Assembly: GCA_033344895.1 (NCBI GenBank)
Contig: JAWPMN010000001.1
Location: 2,674,001-2,738,000, forward strand
Direction of reading: 5' to 3'
DNA from: Alphaproteobacteria bacterium
GTDB lineage: Bacteria > Pseudomonadota > Alphaproteobacteria > UBA8366 > Aestuariispiraceae
DNA length: 64,000 nucleotides
The translations under genes were made by a program, and so were the position numbers. Numbering within the stretch: the stretch's first letter is position 1; each line of letters begins with the position of its first letter. The notes under the pieces were generated by a model, which had not been told where the DNA came from, did no database searches, and saw nothing but the letters and a program-made list of their open reading frames with translations. Shown in pieces: positions 652-18,027 of this stretch.

Positions 652-1347
652 TTAGGCCACATCCTCCGCATAGATCCGCGCGATGGCATTCTGAACCTGC
701 AGCCGCACCTCGTCGGCGGAGCGGTTCAGGTGGCCTTCCATCAGCGACAAGGCGCTGTCGGTTTCCCTTGCCGCGATGTGATCGAGCAGCCGCGCGTGTT
801 CGTCGAGCGTACTGCCCCGGCGCTGGTCGGTCTCAAGGTTGAGGCGGCGCACGAAGCGGATGCGGGCGTTGATGTTGCGCAGGAAATCCTGCCGGATCGG
901 GTTGTCCGCCAGTCCGGCAAGGGCGAGGTGAAAGTCCTCATCCAGTGCCACGAGGCGGTCCAGATTGGAAGGGCGCTCGCCGGAAAGGGTTCTGCGCCAT
1001 GCGGCGACGAACGCGTCGAGTTCCTCCTGCGGGGCTTCCGCAAGCGCCGCCTTCAGCGCGCCCAGTTCCAGATCGCGGCGCACGGCATAAAGCTCGGTCG
1101 TCTCGCGGATGCTGAGGCGGCGGCAGAAGAATCCGCGGCGCGCCTCGAAATGGACGAGCCCGTCCGCAATCAGGCGGTTCAGCGCCTCGCGGATCGGTGC
1201 CCGGCTCATGCCCAGATCGACGGCCAGTTCGCTTTCGTTCAACCGCTCGCCGGGCTTGGTTCGAAAGGTGATCAGCCGGTCACGGATCTGCTCATAGGCC
1301 AGTTCGACCGCATTCGCCCGTCCGGTCATGTCTTTCGTTCCCGTCAT
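652..1347 (-). CDS. GntR family transcriptional regulator, FCD subfamily
   Basis: A 231-aa regulator with a winged helix-turn-helix at about residues 14-80 (LGMSRAPIREALNRL is the recognition region) and an all-helical FCD ligand-binding domain at about 88-215. The FCD metal-site residues D136, H140, H184 and H206 are all present, so it probably binds a carboxylate ligand through a metal. It is transcribed divergently from the dioxygenase-mutase-reductase operon. The intergenic region carries a perfect palindrome of the TTGTNNACAA type used by this family, so it is probably the local repressor or activator. An in-frame ATG six codons downstream is an alternative start. Confidence 0.9.
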   Translation of the reverse strand: MTGTKDMTGRANAVELAYEQIRDRLITFRTKPGERLNESELAVDLGMSRAPIREALNRLIADGLVHFEARRGFFCRRLSIRETTELYAVRRDLELGALKAALAEAPQEELDAFVAAWRRTLSGERPSNLDRLVALDEDFHLALAGLADNPIRQDFLRNINARIRFVRRLNLETDQRRGSTLDEHARLLDHIAARETDSALSLMEGHLNRSADEVRLQVQNAIARIYAEDVA

Positions 1348-1435: not shown

Positions 1436-1449
1436 AATTGTCGACAATT
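1436..1449. promoter_or_regulatory. Perfect 14-bp palindrome, probable GntR operator
   Basis: AATTGTCGACAATT is identical to its reverse complement. It lies between the divergent GntR gene and the dioxygenase operon, 36 bp upstream of the dioxygenase ATG. A TTGACA -35-like hexamer is at 1398-1403, so the palindrome sits near the expected transcription start. FCD-type GntR proteins commonly bind TTGT-NN-ACAA sites (family knowledge). That this GntR binds here is inference. Confidence 0.7.
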
Positions 1450-1485
1450 TGGTGGCCCGCGATGTCACCGCCAGGGAGACAGGCC

Positions 1486-2310
1486 ATGACCGCAGCGCAG
1501 ACCAAAGCCGCCGCTGAAAAACATCTGTCCGAAGCAGAACAGGCGCAGTTTCACGACAAGGGCTGGATCGTCCCGCGCTGGGAACTGCCGGCGGAGCTGA
1601 TCGCGGAGATGCGGCGCGAATACGCTGACCTGCTGGCGCGGAACAGCCATGTGGAATCCGACATCATCCTGGCCCCGCATCAGACCAATGGCGGCTCCAT
1701 GGGGATCAAGGGGTCGGAAAAATGGCTGGAATTCGCGACCCATCCGAAGATCGTCGAGACGGCGCGGGAACTGATCGGCGAGGACATCATCCTGTGGGGC
1801 ACGACCCTGTTCGGCAAACCGGCGCGAAAGGGAAAGGAAACGCCCTGGCACCAGGACGGGGAATATTATCCGATCCGCCCGCTGGAGACGCTGACGGTGT
1901 GGATCCCGCTGGAGGATGTGACGCCGGAAAACGGGCCGATGCGCTTCATCCCCGGCTCCCACAAGAAGCATGAACTCTACAGCCATTCCTGGGTCGAGGG
2001 GGACGACAAGACAATCAACCTCGTCTGCGATACCGAGCATTATGACGAGGCGACGGCGGAATCGCTGATCATCCGGGCGGGGCAGGTGTCCTTCCACGAC
2101 GTTTACATGATCCACGGGTCGAAGCCGAACCGCACCGATCATCCGCGCCCGGCCTTCATCATCCGCCTGATGCCCGCGACCTGCTTCTATGACCACGCGC
2201 TGGGGGCCGAGACGGGCAAGAAACACCCGGCCCAGGGCTATGGCATCCGCCCGCTTTATCTGATCAGCGGCCAGGACCGGGCGAACAACAATTTTACCAT
2301 TGGTCACTAA
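1486..2310 (+). CDS. Phytanoyl-CoA dioxygenase family (PhyH) Fe(II)/2-oxoglutarate oxygenase
   Basis: A 274-aa non-heme iron oxygenase that would hydroxylate an unidentified substrate using O2 and 2-oxoglutarate. The iron-binding facial triad is visible as H122-x-D124 in WHQDGEYY and H210 in VYMIHGS. Arginines downstream (RTDHPRPAFIIR) are suited to hold 2-oxoglutarate. ATG 1486 is chosen over the upstream TTG 1438 because AGGGAGACAGG lies just before it and the TTG falls inside the operator palindrome. It is first in an operon, with 4 bp to the next ATG. Relatives include ectoine and proline hydroxylases, but the substrate cannot be read from sequence. Confidence 0.9.
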   Translation: MTAAQTKAAAEKHLSEAEQAQFHDKGWIVPRWELPAELIAEMRREYADLLARNSHVESDIILAPHQTNGGSMGIKGSEKWLEFATHPKIVETARELIGEDIILWGTTLFGKPARKGKETPWHQDGEYYPIRPLETLTVWIPLEDVTPENGPMRFIPGSHKKHELYSHSWVEGDDKTINLVCDTEHYDEATAESLIIRAGQVSFHDVYMIHGSKPNRTDHPRPAFIIRLMPATCFYDHALGAETGKKHPAQGYGIRPLYLISGQDRANNNFTIGH

Positions 2311-2314
2311 GCAC

Positions 2315-4099
2315 ATGACGGACGCGCTGAGCCGCGCAGCGATCCTGCCGGAGGAGAACTTGCCGTCCGGGGCCGAGGTGCTGGCCGAGGGGCGGGCCCT
2401 GGCGCAAGACGTGACGGTCGGCCCCTCCGCCTTCCTGACCGCGCAGGGTGTCGAGAGCGAAACCGCCTTCAAGCAGCGCGAGGCCGAGGCCGGGCGGATC
2501 ATGCAGCACGCCCAGATCGGCTTCCGCAGCCTGGACCGCAGCGTCGAGGCCGTCGCCGAAATCCATGCCCGCGTGGCCGAGGCCGGGTACCGCACCGACC
2601 GCTACGGCATCTGTCTGGACTGGTCCATGGGCTATCCAAGGGCGCAGCGCGACGGTCGGCCCAAGGGCACCGGGCTGATCCTGCAGGGGGAGGAGGATTT
2701 CGCGCGCCTCGCCAATGCCGCCCCGGTCGCCGCGCATTTCGGGGATTTCGTCATCGGCATGCCGGCCGCGCTGGAGAACACCGCCGCGGCCCTGCGCGCC
2801 GGATCGACGGCCATCGGCAATCTGGGCCAGTATTTCACCTTCGAACTGCCGGGCTGGCGCGACGATGTCGCGACGACCCGCGCCACCGTCGCCGCCATCG
2901 CGTTGGCCGCGGCACAGCCGGTCCCGGTCCTGATCCATTCCAATCTGGACGACGGTTTCGCGGCCCGCTTCACCGACCTCGCCTCGGCGCTGGGCGCCGT
3001 GCTGCTGGAGGCCTATATCGTCGACGAGCTGCTCGGCGGGCGGGTCAGCCATTGCTATGGCCACACCTTCTCGCGCCCGCTCGGCCGTTTCGCCTTTCAG
3101 CGCGCGCTGGCGCGGGTCTCGAAATCGCCCGGCACCATGGTCTATGGCAACACCACCTCCTATGGCGAGAACGAGGCGGCGAGCTATGCCGCGCTGGGCG
3201 CCTATCTGGGTGTCGATATCCAGGCCCAGCGCCTGATGCCGTCCGGCCATGCCGTGAACCCGGTCCCGGTGACGGAGGCGATCCGCATCCCCGATATCGA
3301 CGAGATCGTCGCCGCCCAGATCTTCTGCGGCGAGAGCGTTCGCCGGACGGAAGGCGTGGAACAGTTCACCGGAACGGACGCGGTGGACGCGCTGGCCGAC
3401 CGGCTGGTCGACGGGGCGCGGCGGTTCAAGGCCTCGGTGCTGTCCGGGCTTACGGATGCCGGGATCAACATCGCCGACCCGTTCGAGATGTTCCTGTCCC
3501 TGCGCCGCATCGGGGCCAAGCGGCTGGAGGAACTCTACGGGCCGGGCCGGGAAGAGGCAGGCGCGCCGAACGGCCGTCGCCCGGTCGAGCCGTCGCCGGT
3601 CCTGGACGAGATATCGGAACGCGCGGCCCAGGCCCTGACCCGGCTGCCCGCCGCACAGCGCAGCGCCATCGCCGCGTCGGATTTGCGCATCGTCACCGCG
3701 ACGACCGACGTGCATGAATACGGTAAGCGCCTGCTGGACGACATGCTGGCGCAGCTTGGAGTCACCGCCCTGGACGGGCAGGTCAGCACCGATCCCGACC
3801 GCCTGGCGGAGGTCGCGCGCGGGGCCGATGCGATCTTCCTCAGCACCTATAACGGTGTCGCGCTCAGCTTCCTGAAGTCGCTGAAATCCGAGCTGGCGGC
3901 ACGCGGGCTGGACGTGCCGGTCTTCATCGGCGGCAAGCTGAACCAGGTGCCGGATACATCGAATACCAGCCTGCCCGTCGATGTCGGCGCGGAACTGGGG
4001 GCGGAGGGCGCGATCGTCTGCCGCTCGGTCGAGGATTTCTACGCGCCTCTGGCGGCGCTGATCGAGGCGAAGGAACCGAAGGAGAAGACGGCACAATGA
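2315..4099 (+). CDS. Cobalamin-dependent mutase-like protein: TIM-barrel catalytic region fused to B12-binding domain
   Basis: A 594-aa protein. The N-terminal ~440 residues look like a TIM-barrel catalytic subunit, loosely like the epsilon chain of glutamate (methylaspartate) mutase. The C-terminal ~140 residues are a B12-binding Rossmann domain with the base-off signature D465-x-H467-x-x-G470 and a later GGKLN turn, so the lower axial ligand histidine is present. In clostridial glutamate mutase these are separate subunits; here they are fused. Coding starts 4 bp after the dioxygenase stop (ATG 2315; an upstream TTG at 2300 is possible) and ends in a 4-bp ATGA overlap with the reductase. Carbon-skeleton or amino mutase activity is inferred; the substrate is unknown. 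Confidence 0.75.
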   Translation: MTDALSRAAILPEENLPSGAEVLAEGRALAQDVTVGPSAFLTAQGVESETAFKQREAEAGRIMQHAQIGFRSLDRSVEAVAEIHARVAEAGYRTDRYGICLDWSMGYPRAQRDGRPKGTGLILQGEEDFARLANAAPVAAHFGDFVIGMPAALENTAAALRAGSTAIGNLGQYFTFELPGWRDDVATTRATVAAIALAAAQPVPVLIHSNLDDGFAARFTDLASALGAVLLEAYIVDELLGGRVSHCYGHTFSRPLGRFAFQRALARVSKSPGTMVYGNTTSYGENEAASYAALGAYLGVDIQAQRLMPSGHAVNPVPVTEAIRIPDIDEIVAAQIFCGESVRRTEGVEQFTGTDAVDALADRLVDGARRFKASVLSGLTDAGINIADPFEMFLSLRRIGAKRLEELYGPGREEAGAPNGRRPVEPSPVLDEISERAAQALTRLPAAQRSAIAASDLRIVTATTDVHEYGKRLLDDMLAQLGVTALDGQVSTDPDRLAEVARGADAIFLSTYNGVALSFLKSLKSELAARGLDVPVFIGGKLNQVPDTSNTSLPVDVGAELGAEGAIVCRSVEDFYAPLAALIEAKEPKEKTAQ

Positions 4100-4881
4100 C
4101 GACAATCGGCATACTCGGCGTCGGCTATCTGGGCGAATGTCTGGCGGAGGGGCTGGCAGGGGCCATCGGGGAGGGATCGGACTTCACCGTTCTGCTGTCT
4201 CCGCGCAGCGCCGCCCGCGCCGCCCGTCTTGCGGAAAAGCACGGCTATGAGATCGCCCGGGACAATGCCGATCTGGTGACGCGGTCCGATTTCGTCTTCC
4301 TGGCGACCAAGCCCGAACAGATCGTCGATACCGCCAAGGGCCTGCCCTGGCGCGAAGGCCAGCGGGCGGTCTCCATCGCGGCCGGGATCACGCTGCCCGC
4401 GATCCGCGATGCGGTCGCGCCCGCCACGGCGCTGCGCTCCATGCCCATCGCCGCCAGCCGCATCCGCCAGAGCCCGACCGCCTATTGCCCGCCCGACGAA
4501 ATGGCCGAGGAAGTCTTCGCCGCGCTCGGCTCCGCCCATGCCGTGGACGGCGACGACCAGTTCGAAACCGCCAGCATCTTCGGCGCCTATTACGGCCATC
4601 TGCATGTGCTCTACGACACGGTCGCCGGCTGGGCACAGGACAACGGCCTGCCCGCCGAAACCGCCCGCGCGCTCACCGCCCGCATGGCCCAGGCCGCCGC
4701 CGCCTCCATCCTCACCCAAACCAACCGCCGCCCCCGCGCCCCGCTGGACGATCTGATGACCGAAGGCGGCATCACCAAGGCCGGCCTCAACATCCTAGAC
4801 GCCGCCGACGCCTTCACCCCCTGGTCCGACGCCCTAACCACCGCCCGCAGGCGATCGGGGGAAATTGCGGGGGAGGGATAG
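4096..4881 (+). CDS. Pyrroline-5-carboxylate reductase-like (ProC family) oxidoreductase
   Basis: A 261-aa NAD(P)-dependent reductase with an N-terminal Rossmann fold (GVGYLGE near residue 7), a VFLATKPEQ strand typical of ProC, and a helical dimerisation half containing MTEGGITKAGL, where ProC has a T-P-G-G-T-T motif. It overlaps the mutase gene by ATGA, so the two are translationally coupled. Its place beside a mutase and a hydroxylase suggests reduction of a cyclic imine made from the mutase product rather than routine proline synthesis (inference). The last 40 residues are Ala/Arg-rich. Confidence 0.8.
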   Translation: MTTIGILGVGYLGECLAEGLAGAIGEGSDFTVLLSPRSAARAARLAEKHGYEIARDNADLVTRSDFVFLATKPEQIVDTAKGLPWREGQRAVSIAAGITLPAIRDAVAPATALRSMPIAASRIRQSPTAYCPPDEMAEEVFAALGSAHAVDGDDQFETASIFGAYYGHLHVLYDTVAGWAQDNGLPAETARALTARMAQAAAASILTQTNRRPRAPLDDLMTEGGITKAGLNILDAADAFTPWSDALTTARRRSGEIAGEG

Positions 4882-9700: not shown

Positions 9701-10324
9701 ATGTCCAAGGCTGCGCCCGAAAAGGTGACGGCCATGGGCTTCGACTGCACGACGATTGCCTGCCTGGCCCACAAGGCCGATACCGGGTTCGCGGTTCACA
9801 TCGAACCCTATGGCGGCGGCTTCGGCGGTGGTATCGACCAGGACGGCTGCGATGCGATCGACAATCAGTTGTCGAACTGTGCCAATACGCCGGTGGAATC
9901 CCTCGACACGGGATACGACTTCTTCCGGGTCAAGGCCTACAGCATGGTGACGGATTCCTTCGGTCATGGACGCCATCGCGGCGGTGCGGGTTTCCTACGC
10001 AGCTACGAGATCCTGAAGGACGGGGCGACATTCGCGATCTATTCGGATCATCACAAATATGCGCCGTCCGGCCTGTTCGGCGGCGGTGACGGTACGAAGG
10101 GCTATTGCCGCGTGCTGAGGGGCGGTGAGGAAATCATCGTCGGTTCCAAAAACCTCGTGACGCTCAAGAAGGGCGACATCGTCGAGGTCTTCTGCGGCGG
10201 CGGCGGGGGCTATGGCGACCCGCGCGAGCGCGCCCGCAGCGACATCGAACGGGATATCGCGGAAGGGCTTCTGTCGCCGGGTGAGGCGGCCCGGGTCTAT
10301 GCCATCCCCGAAGCGGCCGAGTAG
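9701..10324 (+). pseudogene. Hydantoinase B / N-methylhydantoinase subunit, C-terminal fragment
   Basis: The 207 residues match the C-terminal third of HyuB-type hydantoinase/oxoprolinase B subunits: EPYGGGFGGGIDQDG, NCANTPVE, DSFGHGRHRGGAGFLR, SDHHKYAPSGLFGGGDG and the end pattern GGGGGYGDPRERA. Complete HyuB proteins are about 520-600 aa and follow a hydantoinase A gene. Here the N-terminal two thirds and the A subunit are absent, and a receiver gene abuts the break near 9690. It is most likely a non-functional remnant, although an ATG opens the frame. It runs 5 bp into the oxidase gene. Confidence 0.8.
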
Positions 10325-10329
10325 CCGGA

Positions 10330-11598
10330 ATGGAGCGCATTGTCTGGTCGGACACGGCCGCAGAACCGGCTGTCACGACGGAGGTCTATCAGGGAGGTTC
10401 CCGAACATCCGTCGTGGTGATCGGAGGCGGTTATGCCGGACTTTCCGCTGCGCTGCACCTGGCCGAGTCGGGCACCGATTGTCTGTTGCTTGAGGCGCAG
10501 ACATTCGGTGCCGGGGCGTCCGGACGCAATAACGGGCAGGTCATACCCGGTCTGAAATACGGGCCCGACGACCTTGAGAGGCGATATGGCGATGCGGGCG
10601 CCGTCGTCGCGCAAACGGCGGCGGGAACCGCTGATCTTGTCTTCGACCTGATCGAAAAGCACGCCATCGATTGCGAACCGGACCGTCGCGGCTGGGTCCG
10701 GGCCGCCCACAGCCTCGTTGCCCTGCCGACCATCGAAAAGCAGGCCGCCCAGTGGGCGCGGCGGGGGGCGCCGGTCGAAATGCTGGACCGCGAACAGGTC
10801 GAAACCCTGCTGGGAACGTCGAACTATGTCGGCGGCATGATCGATCGCCGCGCCGGAAGGCTCCAGCCGCTGTCCTACTGCCGCGGTCTCGCGCGCGCCG
10901 CGAAGGCAGCCGGCGCCTTGCTGCATCAGGACAGCCCGGTTCGTGCATTGACGCGTGAAGGTGGACGCTGGCGCGTGGATACCGATCAGGGAACGGTACG
11001 GGCGGACAAGGTCATCCTGGCGACCGGGGCATATCACGACAACCTGATCCCCGGCTGGTCCAGGGCCTTCATGACCGTGCAGGCGATGCAGATCGCATCG
11101 GAACCCCTGACGGCGAATATCGCCCGATCGATCCTGCCGGGTGTCTCCGCGATGTCGGATACGCGAAAGCTGGCAAATGCGATCCGGATGGATGCCGCCG
11201 GCCGATTGGCGATCACCGGCCGGGGACCGTTGAGCGGCAAGATCGACAATCGCATTCGCCAAGACCTTATCCGCGCCATAACGCGGCTTTTTCCGGCGGT
11301 TGAAGGACAGGCCTGGTCGCATATCTGGGCCGGCCGCATCGGAATCACCATCGACGAGTTGCCGCGACTCGCCGCGCCGCGCCCGGCCTGTCTGGCCATT
11401 GTCGGGTTCAATGGCCGGGGCGTTGCCATGGCCACGGCCCTGGGCAAGGCAGCCGCCGATCATGCCATGGGACAGGAAGCCGGCTTCCCGGTCGTTGACG
11501 CCCCGACCATCCCCTTTCACAGTCTGCGGCGACCGGCGCTCGCCACCGCCATTTCGTACTACCGCATGCGCGATGCGCTCGGCTTTGCCGGTCGCTAA
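10330..11598 (+). CDS. FAD-dependent amine/amino-acid oxidoreductase (DAO family)
   Basis: A 422-aa flavoenzyme. The dinucleotide-binding motif VVVIGGGYAGLSAAL lies near residues 28-42 and is preceded by ~25 residues, as in gamma-glutamylputrescine oxidase (PuuB) and related DAO enzymes. GRNNGQV follows the first helix, and AIVGFNGRGVAMATALGK forms the C-terminal FAD contact. It probably oxidises a secondary or primary amine to an imine with H2O2 or quinone reduction. It lies between the hydantoinase fragment and a gamma-glutamyltransferase-like gene, which fits a pathway through gamma-glutamyl or N-substituted amino compounds (inference). Confidence 0.85.
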   Translation: MERIVWSDTAAEPAVTTEVYQGGSRTSVVVIGGGYAGLSAALHLAESGTDCLLLEAQTFGAGASGRNNGQVIPGLKYGPDDLERRYGDAGAVVAQTAAGTADLVFDLIEKHAIDCEPDRRGWVRAAHSLVALPTIEKQAAQWARRGAPVEMLDREQVETLLGTSNYVGGMIDRRAGRLQPLSYCRGLARAAKAAGALLHQDSPVRALTREGGRWRVDTDQGTVRADKVILATGAYHDNLIPGWSRAFMTVQAMQIASEPLTANIARSILPGVSAMSDTRKLANAIRMDAAGRLAITGRGPLSGKIDNRIRQDLIRAITRLFPAVEGQAWSHIWAGRIGITIDELPRLAAPRPACLAIVGFNGRGVAMATALGKAAADHAMGQEAGFPVVDAPTIPFHSLRRPALATAISYYRMRDALGFAGR

Positions 11599-11625: not shown

Positions 11626-13251
11626 ATGAAAGCCAAGTCCTTCGTCAGCACCCCGCAGCCCGAGGCCAGCGAAACCGGTATCGAAATCCTGCGACGCGGC
11701 GGAAACGCCGTCGACGCGGCCATCGCCGTCGCGCTGGTCCAGGGCGTCGTCGACCCGCAGATGTGCGGCATCGCGGGCTTCGGCAGCATGCAGATCTTCC
11801 TGCCGAAGAAAGGGTTTCACGGTCTTATCGATTTCCACGGCAAGACCCCCTCGGCCGCGCGTCCGGACATGTGGGAACACCTGATCGAAGGTGAGACGCG
11901 CGACGGGTTCGGCTTCATTCTGAAGGGGCGGGTCAACGATGTCGGCTATCAGTCCATCACCGTTCCCGGCAGTCTGAAAGCCTATTACGAGGCGCAGACG
12001 GAGCATGGCGTCATGGATTGGGCCGATGTTGTTCAGCCCGCCATCGACCATGCCGAACGCGGTGTCGTCATCCGGCCGCACATGTATTTCTTCTGGACCC
12101 AGAATGACGGCATGGGTCGGGTTCTGACATCGGATCGGCTGGCTTTCACGGAATCGGGACGGCGCATCTATTTCAATGCCGATGGCAGCCTCAAGCGGCC
12201 AGGGAACCGGCTGCACAATCCCGACATGGCCCGGACACTGCGCACCATCGCGGCGGAAGGCGCGGATGTTTTCTATCGCGGTGAAATCGCGGACCGGATC
12301 GCGGCCGATATGAAAGCGAATGGCGGTCTGCTTTCCCGCGAGGACCTGGAGACCTATCGGACCACAAGGACGGAGCCGCTATGGGGGCGGTTCCGCGATT
12401 TCGACATCGCCAGCAACCAGCCGCCGGGGGGCGGCATCATGCTGATCGAGATGCTGCAGATGCTTGCGCATTTTGATCTCAAGTCGCTCGGCCACAACTC
12501 GTCCGAATATCTGCGCATCGTCGCCGAAGCGATGAAGCGCGCGACCAGTGACAAGGATGCCTTTGTCGGCGACCCTGCATTTTACGACGTCCCGGTCGCC
12601 CGGCTGACCGATCCGGACTATGCGCGGGACCAGGCCGAGGCCATCCGCGCGGGTGAGGTCGCGTCAGTGGAGCGCCTCGTAAAGGCGTTCGACGAATCCA
12701 AGGACACGACGCATATCGCCGTTGTCGATCCGGAGGGCGGCATTGTCAGCATGACCCATTCGCTCGGCATGCCGTCCGGCGTGATCACGGAAGGCCTGGG
12801 CTTCATGTACAATGGCTGCATGGGCGTCTTCGATCCGCGTCCCGGGCGGGCGGGATCAATTGCCCCCGGCAAGTCCCGGTTCAGTTCGGTCTGCCCGACG
12901 ATCGCATTCAAGGACGGCGATCCCCGTCTGGTCATCGGCGCGCCGGGCGGCACACAGATCGCGATGGGCGTGCTGCAGGCAACACTGAACGTGCTGGAAT
13001 TCGACATGCCCATCGTCGAGGCCATCGCGGCGCCTCGCTTCTCCGCAACCAGCAACGCGATCGATATCAGCAACCGGATTCCGGGCTATGTGACCCGCCC
13101 GCTCGAGGAACGTGGATATGAAATCATCCGCAGCCATTTGAGCTATGGGTTTGCGGCGGTTCACGGCCTGAAGCGGGAACCCGACGGCCTGTGGACCGGC
13201 GGGGCGGATCCGGGACACGACGGCATGGCTCTCGGTTTCGCCGAAGACTGA
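11626..13251 (+). CDS. Gamma-glutamyltransferase family Ntn-hydrolase
   Basis: A 541-aa proenzyme of the gamma-glutamyltranspeptidase family. Early GGNAVDAAIAVAL is a family hallmark. The autoprocessing site is the TTH motif, with T361 expected as the new N-terminal nucleophile of the small subunit. In the small subunit, APGGTQI and the glycine-rich loop resemble the substrate-binding PGG segment. There is no signal peptide, so unlike classical GGT it is probably cytoplasmic. It would hydrolyse a gamma-glutamyl amide or related acyl bond. It lies 27 bp after the oxidase gene, so the two are likely one transcript. Confidence 0.88.
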   Translation: MKAKSFVSTPQPEASETGIEILRRGGNAVDAAIAVALVQGVVDPQMCGIAGFGSMQIFLPKKGFHGLIDFHGKTPSAARPDMWEHLIEGETRDGFGFILKGRVNDVGYQSITVPGSLKAYYEAQTEHGVMDWADVVQPAIDHAERGVVIRPHMYFFWTQNDGMGRVLTSDRLAFTESGRRIYFNADGSLKRPGNRLHNPDMARTLRTIAAEGADVFYRGEIADRIAADMKANGGLLSREDLETYRTTRTEPLWGRFRDFDIASNQPPGGGIMLIEMLQMLAHFDLKSLGHNSSEYLRIVAEAMKRATSDKDAFVGDPAFYDVPVARLTDPDYARDQAEAIRAGEVASVERLVKAFDESKDTTHIAVVDPEGGIVSMTHSLGMPSGVITEGLGFMYNGCMGVFDPRPGRAGSIAPGKSRFSSVCPTIAFKDGDPRLVIGAPGGTQIAMGVLQATLNVLEFDMPIVEAIAAPRFSATSNAIDISNRIPGYVTRPLEERGYEIIRSHLSYGFAAVHGLKREPDGLWTGGADPGHDGMALGFAED

Positions 13252-16821: not shown

Positions 16822-18027
16822 GTGTCGGCGAAACTCAAGATCGCGAACCTGTCGAAGGTGTTTGGGGATAAGCCGGATATTGTCTTCGGCATGGCCCGGG
16901 AGGGGCTGCATCCAAAGGAGATATTCGAGCGTACCGGCCAGATGCTGGCGGTGTCCGACGTCTCGTTCGACGTGAATGAAGGCGAAATCTTCACCATCAT
17001 GGGCCTGTCCGGGTCGGGGAAATCCACCCTGGTCCGGTGTCTGAACCGTCTCGTGGAGCCGACATCCGGTACCGTCCTGCTGGACGGCGAGGATATCTGT
17101 GGTGCCTCGCCTGCGCGCCTGCGGGATATCCGGCGTCACAAGCTGTCCATGGTGTTTCAGAACTTCGCACTTCTGCCGCACAAATCGGTCCGTCAGAATG
17201 TGGAATTCGGTCTGCTGATCCGTGACGAACCGGCGGTCGAACGCCGCCGCAGGGCGGAAAGTGCAATCGAACAGGTCGGTCTCACGCCCTGGGCGGACCG
17301 CTTTCCGGATAGCCTGAGCGGCGGCATGAAACAGCGGGTCGGATTGGCCAGGGCCCTGGCCAGCGATGCCGACATCATGCTGATGGACGAACCTTTCAGC
17401 GCCCTGGATCCCCTGATCCGAACCGACCTTCAGGCCGAACTGATCCGAATCCAAAAGGCGATCAAGAAGACAATCATCTTCATCACGCACGACTTCTATG
17501 AGGCCGTGAAGTTGAGCGACAAGGTCGCCATCATGCGCGACGGCCGTTGCGTTCAGGTCGCCTCGCCGGAAGAGATCGTGCTCTCTCCGGCGGATGGCTA
17601 TGTCCGGGACTTTGCAAAGGAACTGGACCCCGCGCGTGTGATTTCCGCGCGAACAATGGCCCGTTTCGGCGGGGCGGCCGTTGACCCCGATGCCAGTCCG
17701 GACGACGTCCTGGCCGCCATGCGCGCCGCTGGAAAATCCTGCCTGATCGTGGCGGACGAGATCGGCGCGCCGCAGGGCTATATCTGCCGTGCCGATCTGG
17801 ACTCCTTGGCGCGTTCCAGCGGTGCCCGGGCGCGGGATTTCTGCAACGGGGCCAGCGTCCGGGTGGTTCCGGAAACCATGCCGTTGATCGATGTCTATTC
17901 CGTCATGGGCGACGGTCTGCCCGTGGCTGTCGTCGATGCGAAAAGGCGGATCGTCGGGACCTTCGATGCGGGCGACGTGTTGAGCCGGCTGTCGACTTCG
18001 GCCCATTCCCATCAGCGTGCCGTTTGA
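16822..18027 (+). CDS. Glycine betaine/proline-type ABC transporter ATP-binding protein (ProV-like)
   Basis: A 401-aa ATPase powering import of a quaternary-ammonium-type solute. It has Walker A GLSGSGKST at 61-69, Q-loop FQNFALLPH, signature LSGGM at 165-169 and Walker B LMDE at 187-190. The ~130 C-terminal residues form the tandem CBS region typical of ProV/OpuAA. The N-terminal segment with FGMAREGLHPKEIFERTG is also characteristic of ProV. The start is GTG, backed by AAGGGTGG six bases upstream. It is first gene of a three-gene importer. The substrate may be a betaine used as a nutrient rather than an osmolyte. Confidence 0.92.
   Translation: MSAKLKIANLSKVFGDKPDIVFGMAREGLHPKEIFERTGQMLAVSDVSFDVNEGEIFTIMGLSGSGKSTLVRCLNRLVEPTSGTVLLDGEDICGASPARLRDIRRHKLSMVFQNFALLPHKSVRQNVEFGLLIRDEPAVERRRRAESAIEQVGLTPWADRFPDSLSGGMKQRVGLARALASDADIMLMDEPFSALDPLIRTDLQAELIRIQKAIKKTIIFITHDFYEAVKLSDKVAIMRDGRCVQVASPEEIVLSPADGYVRDFAKELDPARVISARTMARFGGAAVDPDASPDDVLAAMRAAGKSCLIVADEIGAPQGYICRADLDSLARSSGARARDFCNGASVRVVPETMPLIDVYSVMGDGLPVAVVDAKRRIVGTFDAGDVLSRLSTSAHSHQRAV

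Follow-up and report, generated by a model that had tools for sequence, protein, structure and literature searches.

A single-chain barrel-B12 protein beside a ProC-like reductase in an alphaproteobacterial operon looks like a separate adenosylcobalamin mutase family

Results

We analysed a 64,000-nucleotide stretch of the genome of a marine Alphaproteobacteria bacterium of the Aestuariispiraceae (GenBank assembly GCA_033344895.1, contig JAWPMN010000001.1, positions 2,674,001–2,738,000; hereafter the window), in which a three-gene operon encodes a PhyH-family dioxygenase, a protein that joins a barrel to a cobalamin (B12)-binding domain, and a ProC-like reductase. The central barrel-B12 protein (594 aa; window positions 2315–4099, forward strand) looks like a member of a separate, so far unnamed family of adenosylcobalamin (AdoCbl) mutases, because the model of its barrel matches such mutases, its D465-x-H467 pair is kept among relatives, and the lysine that carries pyridoxal phosphate (PLP) in aminomutases is absent. 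We favour, at a probability of about 60%, a single-chain base-off/His-on AdoCbl mutase whose barrel belongs to the glutamate-mutase/aminomutase class and which is paired with the ProC-like imine reductase on an amino- or imino-acid-like substrate.

Predicted fold and cobalt-ligand motif of the barrel-B12 protein

Relatives were taken from 77 loci that are among the listed matches to short patterns of the window protein. Alignment A1 contains the window protein and 71 of these 77 (72 rows); L002 (98% identical) and L027, L068, L070, L072 and L074 (split or cut) were set aside.

The barrel half (residues 1–440; 2315–3634, forward strand) had no Pfam, NCBIfam or PDB sequence match of its own. Searches of PDB sequences by phmmer and by profile returned weak barrel matches from E 0.033 upward, such as adrenodoxin, which are probably due to chance. 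NCBIfam recognised the B12 part alone in the window protein and, across the 72 rows, gave two unrelated models in one row each (E 0.002) besides those of the B12 type. The AlphaFold2 model of the full-length protein (pLDDT 93.1, pTM 0.92) retrieved methylmalonyl-CoA mutase at Foldseek ranks 1–18, followed by ornithine aminomutase and glutamate mutase E. Because the B12 domain could drive these matches, the barrel was folded by itself from alignment A4, which holds 52 sequences chosen for spread. Searched against the PDB, this second model (pLDDT 95.0, pTM 0.93) matched AdoCbl mutase chains at every one of ranks 1–16. Glutamate mutase E came first (E 4.4e-9; TM score 0.61 by query and 0.56 by target), and the other matches were lysine 5,6- and ornithine 4,5-aminomutase, methylmalonyl-CoA mutase and 2-hydroxyisobutyryl-CoA mutase. 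The barrel thus has the AdoCbl-mutase fold in a predicted, not a solved, structure.

The B12-binding domain covers about residues 455–585 (3677–4069, forward strand). Pfam B12-binding matched residues 459–542 with E 1.2e-7 at 32.0 bits, just under its cut-off of 32.1. Within it lies the cobalt-ligand motif D465-V-H467-E-Y-G470 (3707–3724, forward strand), in which D465 and H467, together with the following K471, are kept in all 72 rows and G470 in 68. The protein therefore carries D-x-H-x-x-G, the base-off/His-on signature of AdoCbl-dependent mutases. A preliminary description of this DNA, made from the sequence alone, had read the central protein, with this motif, as a fused B12 mutase and had named a barrel of some non-mutase family as a finding that would speak against it. 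The motif holds across the family, the predicted barrel is that of AdoCbl mutases, and one relative lies beside a gene for the reactivase GlmL (see below), all of which agree with that reading.

The barrel-B12 protein had a single match in its own 4.64-Mb genome. When its profile was searched through the phylum, 267 of 299 genomes gave a match, with a best E value below 1e-200 in its own genome, G028 and G107 only; the next best was 9.7e-15. The matches listed at that level covered the B12 part of ORFs that are mostly long and probably MetH. Neither Pfam nor NCBIfam, as searched here, offers a model specific to the family, fully annotated copies on the plasmids found are labelled “cobalamin-dependent protein” or “hypothetical protein”, and a literature search at the level of titles and abstract openings found nothing on it.

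Comparison with known cobalamin enzymes

Glutamate mutase (GlmS/GlmE; NF002612, TIGR01501, PF06368) shares with the barrel-B12 protein the barrel fold, being the top structural match of the barrel, and the D-x-H-x-x-G B12 domain; the GlmL gene adjoining one clostridial relative is a further likeness. Unlike the barrel-B12 protein, which is one chain, glutamate mutase consists of two. PF06368 (GlmE) found no match in the window's genome at E≤0.001 and none for the barrel-B12 protein at E≤1. The relevant part of PMC10947579 describes the glutamate mutase substrate as held by an arginine claw of R66, R100, R149 and E171; in a weak profile alignment (probability 7.5%), the counterpart of R66 is Q67 and that of R149 is H141, the positions of R100 and E171 being uncertain, and the claw may be absent. 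A ProC-like partner also takes the place of methylaspartate ammonia-lyase, which is not among the three genes of the operon. Glutamate mutase E does occur in some other Alphaproteobacteria, and long ORFs in L079 (867 aa) and L094 (about 660 aa) suggest fused forms. That the operon encodes a fused glutamate mutase proper, making 3-methylaspartate in an aerobe, would fit these ORFs and the top rank of GlmE, but the missing PF06368 match, the missing ammonia-lyase and the apparent loss of the claw make it highly improbable.

Ornithine 4,5- and lysine 5,6-aminomutase likewise share the barrel fold and take ranks 3–6 and 9–11 of the barrel search. A PLP- and B12-dependent aminomutase of this type, with the ProC-like enzyme reducing its cyclised product, would also suit two ornithine-linked neighbours of related genes, an arginase at L068 (286.1 bits, above the 227.6 cut-off) and an acetylornithine deacetylase at L073 (382.7 bits, above 297.7). 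As given in the portion of PMC3958899 drawn on here, however, the PLP lysine of these enzymes lies 11 residues after the cobalt histidine (K629/H618 and K144/H133). The equivalent column of our alignment, 478, holds L in 54 rows, F in 14, M in two, and G and S in one each; it is never K. This absence rejects or at least weakens the aminomutase explanation, which we regard as very unlikely, and because of it a carbon-skeleton rearrangement is more likely than amino migration. Of the two clostridial enzymes named in the preliminary description, the barrel-B12 protein thus lacks the marks that could be compared, the GlmE model for glutamate mutase and the PLP lysine for ornithine mutase.

Methylmalonyl-CoA mutase and its relatives (PF01642) have the same order of barrel and C-terminal B12 domain in one chain and are the top matches of the full-length model. 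They differ in that PF01642 found no match for the barrel-B12 protein at E≤1, the operon contains no acyl-CoA gene, and the sequence comparison was not significant. 2-Methyleneglutarate mutase likewise has its B12 domain at the C-terminus of a single chain, which is ~600 aa long; the likeness is one of description only, and close kinship with the barrel-B12 family is possible. In the section of PMC2667541 consulted, this enzyme is listed as an AdoCbl isomerase subclass, and a B12-dependent family was predicted in 2009 whose B12 protein always adjoins a CH-NH oxidoreductase of the octopine/nopaline dehydrogenase family. Compared by that description only, the 2009 family differs from ours in having an N-terminal B12-binding region and in occurring in Firmicutes, Chloroflexi and Thermotogae (PMC2667541).

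Gene partners and distribution

The ProC-like gene (4096–4881, forward strand) encodes a putative two-domain NAD(P)-dependent imine reductase with Pfam matches to F420_oxidored (1.4e-12) and P5CR_dimer (4.8e-10), the latter placing it in the P5C-reductase fold family. Against the proC model TIGR00112 it scored 105.8–106.2 bits, below the equivalog cut-off of 196.75. A canonical proC elsewhere in the same genome scored 242.6 bits, above the curated cut-off, and we rejected the operon reductase as canonical ProC on both counts.

In 48 of the 77 loci the barrel-B12 gene has a ProC-like gene no more than 1.5 kb away, and in 40 this gene is directly downstream on the same strand. Close homologues of the PhyH protein are found near the barrel-B12 gene in 10 loci, divergent in L004, L005, L007 and L008 and co-directional in the other six, and the window's GntR regulator co-occurs in two, both from the window's genus. 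The core is thus the mutase–imine reductase pair, with PhyH and GntR optional. The preliminary description had proposed all four genes as one pathway unit and had named a lack of their joint conservation elsewhere as a finding against it; such a lack is largely what the loci show, the ProC-like gene alone being a common partner.

The distribution of PhyH is not random. On the B12-protein tree its presence is clustered (five changes; none of 500 shuffles was as low, mean 9.5), yet supported branches force at least four changes, whether by gain or by loss. PhyH is therefore inherited in some clades while standing outside the core. It could accordingly be asked whether PhyH lies outside the pathway even at the window, the mutase–reductase pair alone being the functional unit. 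Its presence in 10 of 77 loci and its variable orientation are in keeping with this; the close homologues that adjoin the barrel-B12 gene in separate clades of the tree are not, and we hold this explanation to be possible without favouring it.

By record label, the hosts are Proteobacteria, the main group for the pair, Chloroflexota, Acidobacteriota, Bacillota and two Asgard archaea. The pair itself also occurs in one Acidobacteriota and the two Asgard archaeal bins; at the Chloroflexota loci no gene close to the barrel-B12 gene is ProC-like. Some odd hosts may reflect contamination, since many of the genomes are metagenome bins and the sole Oceanobacillus locus groups with an Alphaproteobacterium on the tree. 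The barrel-B12 protein is present in four of five other genomes of the window's genus. Its closest relative, L002, is filed as a Mesoflavibacter bin; this public label looks wrong, as a genome with its match at the same coordinates is assigned to the window's genus, next to Pacificispira.

Two further groups of loci differ in gene number or partner. In L018 (641–9637) five paralogous barrel-B12 genes stand head to tail in an array, and in L021 (878–8400) at least four do. The paralogues are about 50–69% identical to each other, and copies at the same position are 86–92% identical between the two bins. The L018 array ends in a ProC-like gene, and one of its copies has an internal stop. In the first array copy the B12 motif keeps D-x-H and reads A in place of G, and the barrel motifs are changed. 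The genomes of L018 and L021 have six and seven barrel-B12 matches, some of them partial, and the arrays possibly encode a heteromeric mutase. At L087 (7416–9004), the stretch directly upstream of the B12 gene, a plausible place for a ProC-like gene, is taken by genes for an alpha/beta hydrolase and an aspartate-dehydrogenase-like protein, and an annotated proC is found 7 kb downstream by a GntR gene.

Gene layout and regulation in the window

The PhyH-family Fe(II)/2-oxoglutarate dioxygenase (1486–2310, forward strand; Pfam PhyH 3.1e-35) begins with ATG at 1486 and ends with TAA at 2308–2310. Its protein has the 2-His-1-Asp triad H122/D124/H210, which, with R221, is kept in 11 of 11 aligned rows. 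A 4-bp gap separates it from the barrel-B12 ORF (ATG at 2315, TGA at 4097–4099), whose stop is overlapped by 4 bp (ATGA) by the ATG of the ProC-like gene at 4096. The GntR/FCD transcriptional regulator (652–1347, reverse strand; Pfam GntR 4.3e-17, FCD 1.4e-21) is divergent from the operon; its top NCBIfam model was phnR_burk at 94.6 bits, under the cut-off of 271.5. Starts and stops of the operon were checked at the level of bases, and the four ORFs, their strands and their tight packing are as previously placed.

In the sequence between regulator and operon we identified a perfect 14-bp palindrome, AATTGTCGACAATT (1436–1449, no strand assigned), as a candidate GntR operator; its first base is also where the preliminary description began the region. 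L002 and L003, the two relatives with the same GntR, have the core TGTCGACA at the corresponding site, one palindrome half being degenerate in each. Row L083 of this alignment was ignored, its regulator gap not being covered. The exact 12-mer occurs once in the window, and the exact 10-mer is confined to two loci of the window's own genome among 131 loci. Loose matches are not specific, because with up to two mismatches 13 were found against 2.3 expected. Promoter and terminator scans at the locus performed no better than on shuffles.

Farther along the window, a hydantoinase B/oxoprolinase ORF (9701–10321) is probably a C-terminal remnant, since it covers only profile positions 343–519 of 519. 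Beside it lie genes for a DAO-type oxidase (10330–11598) and a gamma-glutamyltranspeptidase (11626–13251). An ABC transporter ATPase with a CBS domain (16822–18027), ~12 kb from the operon, is of a kind known from glycine betaine/proline uptake.

Neighbourhoods of related genes

The neighbour survey comprised 132 ORFs, many of them uncertain, after nine near-duplicate loci and L001 had been left out; the clostridial and plasmid loci stand outside the 77. On a Phyllobacterium plasmid, GntR, ProC-like and B12 genes lie beside a proline racemase-family gene, an aldehyde dehydrogenase, an FAD oxidoreductase, dapA and amino-acid ABC genes, neighbours that we presume to serve trans-4-hydroxyproline catabolism. 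A PutP-like symporter is found at L010, with the same cluster in L066 and L023, and PxpA at L005, with a near-identical gene in L004. Genes scoring below their model cut-offs resemble ectoine hydrolase at L006 (608.5 bits, cut-off 613) and pyrroline-2-carboxylate reductase at L051 (303.1 bits, cut-off 322). In some contexts these annotations suggest that the substrate is an amino acid or a cyclic imino acid.

In the class of a clostridial relative, 3 of 245 genomes encode the barrel-B12 protein, that relative included. At L120, in one of the three, the gene follows a GlmL/MutL gene (NF040745, 491.3 bits, cut-off 475) by ~40 bp. A gene for a HypD-like glycyl radical enzyme, which at 672.9 bits stays under its cut-off of 1100, lies nearby together with that for its activase, and none of the genes at this locus was recognised as ProC-like. 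The cluster (L120, 431–14114) also includes DUF362, 2-oxoacid:ferredoxin oxidoreductase and HpaB-family genes, and its gene content suggests a fermentation pathway; the substrate of such a pathway could disclose that of the mutase. At L121, in another of the three, an SNF-family symporter gene follows the barrel-B12 gene and an FCD regulator precedes it.

Discussion

The reading of the barrel-B12 protein as an AdoCbl mutase paired with an imine reductase draws on the 16 best barrel matches, all of them AdoCbl mutases, on the invariant D465 and H467, on the GlmL neighbour, on the pairing with a ProC-like enzyme in a genome that has a separate canonical ProC, and on an adenosyltransferase and a second AdoCbl mutase encoded by the same genome. 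The adenosyltransferase is of the CobA type, and the second mutase, a separate gene and the only PF01642 match of the genome, is a fused methylmalonyl-CoA mutase. The preliminary description had considered both a fused B12 mutase and its position beside an O2-dependent hydroxylase unusual. With these two genes in the genome, an AdoCbl mutase next to an O2-dependent enzyme is not odd in itself, and neither is fusion, given this methylmalonyl-CoA mutase and the long GlmE ORFs of Alphaproteobacteria.

Several results weigh against our reading. The fold assignment rests on predicted structures, because the barrel has no significant sequence homology: the profile comparison with glutamate mutase suggested in the preliminary description, carried out with hhalign against seven glutamate mutase E sequences, was not significant (probability 7.5%, E 0.0047), nor was that with the genome's own methylmalonyl-CoA mutase (E 0.19). 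From rank 17, unrelated barrels such as rhamnose isomerase appear in the barrel-alone search with the same E value as rank 16 (4.6e-4). In 29 of the 77 loci there is no ProC-like gene within 1.5 kb, and in only six of these does the contig end less than 600 bp downstream. The partner counts are no census, since the loci are listed matches to short patterns of the window protein. Many barrel-B12 genes stand among housekeeping genes, the neighbours named above were picked by eye and seen in single or few loci, and of 12 genomes searched for GlmL (PF13941), a single one had a match above the cut-off, the window's genome having none.

The top sequence match of the B12 domain also leaves room for another chemistry: in a profile search of the PDB, methionine synthase (MetH) came best at 4.2e-12 and glutamate mutase S followed at 3.4e-7. 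Because of this match, a methylcobalamin-dependent methyltransferase has to be considered, in which the barrel would form the site of the methyl donor or acceptor and the B12 domain would act as in MetH or MtaC/MtbC, for example in demethylating an N-methylated amino acid. Many alignment rows match MetH and corrinoid-protein models, and neighbours of the methyl-amine type occur, namely a GcvT-domain oxidase (sarcosine-oxidase/TMAO-demethylase-like) at L011, to whose family genes in L013 and L051 also belong, and, at L026, a GbcA-like Rieske oxygenase. However, the 16 best matches of the barrel alone are AdoCbl mutases, none of them a methyltransferase barrel; besides the barrel and the B12 part, no domain was recognised in the Pfam and NCBIfam scans; and a GlmL gene adjoins one relative. 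We therefore judge methyl transfer to be unlikely.

For the AdoCbl mutase that we prefer, the following course can be proposed. AdoCbl would bind to H467 of the C-terminal domain, its homolysis over the barrel would yield the adenosyl radical, and this radical would start a 1,2-rearrangement of an amino- or imino-acid-like substrate. The ProC-like enzyme would convert the imine form of the substrate or product into the amine or back, and would pull the reversible mutase step. In the window's genus and a few other lineages, the PhyH dioxygenase may hydroxylate an upstream compound; hydroxylation followed by cyclisation to an imine for the ProC-like enzyme, as first suggested in the preliminary description, is possible. 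GntR would control the gene set at the window locus, presumably as an inducible one. More speculatively, the enzyme could be a PLP-free radical mutase in which the cyclic imine of the substrate itself is the radical acceptor. The ProC-like enzyme would then set or trap a pyrroline or piperideine imine, and the AdoCbl radical would move carbon across C=N in a ring expansion or contraction (proline-type to pipecolate-type), as aminomutases do with PLP. We think this version unlikely.

Few classes of AdoCbl mutase are known, each tied to a distinctive conversion. The operon may represent a step of amino-acid-like chemistry that has yet to be described, and the barrel-B12 family, which spans Alphaproteobacteria, Clostridia and Asgard archaeal bins, offers a testable entry to such an amino- or imino-acid conversion. 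It also adds a possible demand for cobalamin that is hidden from current annotation.

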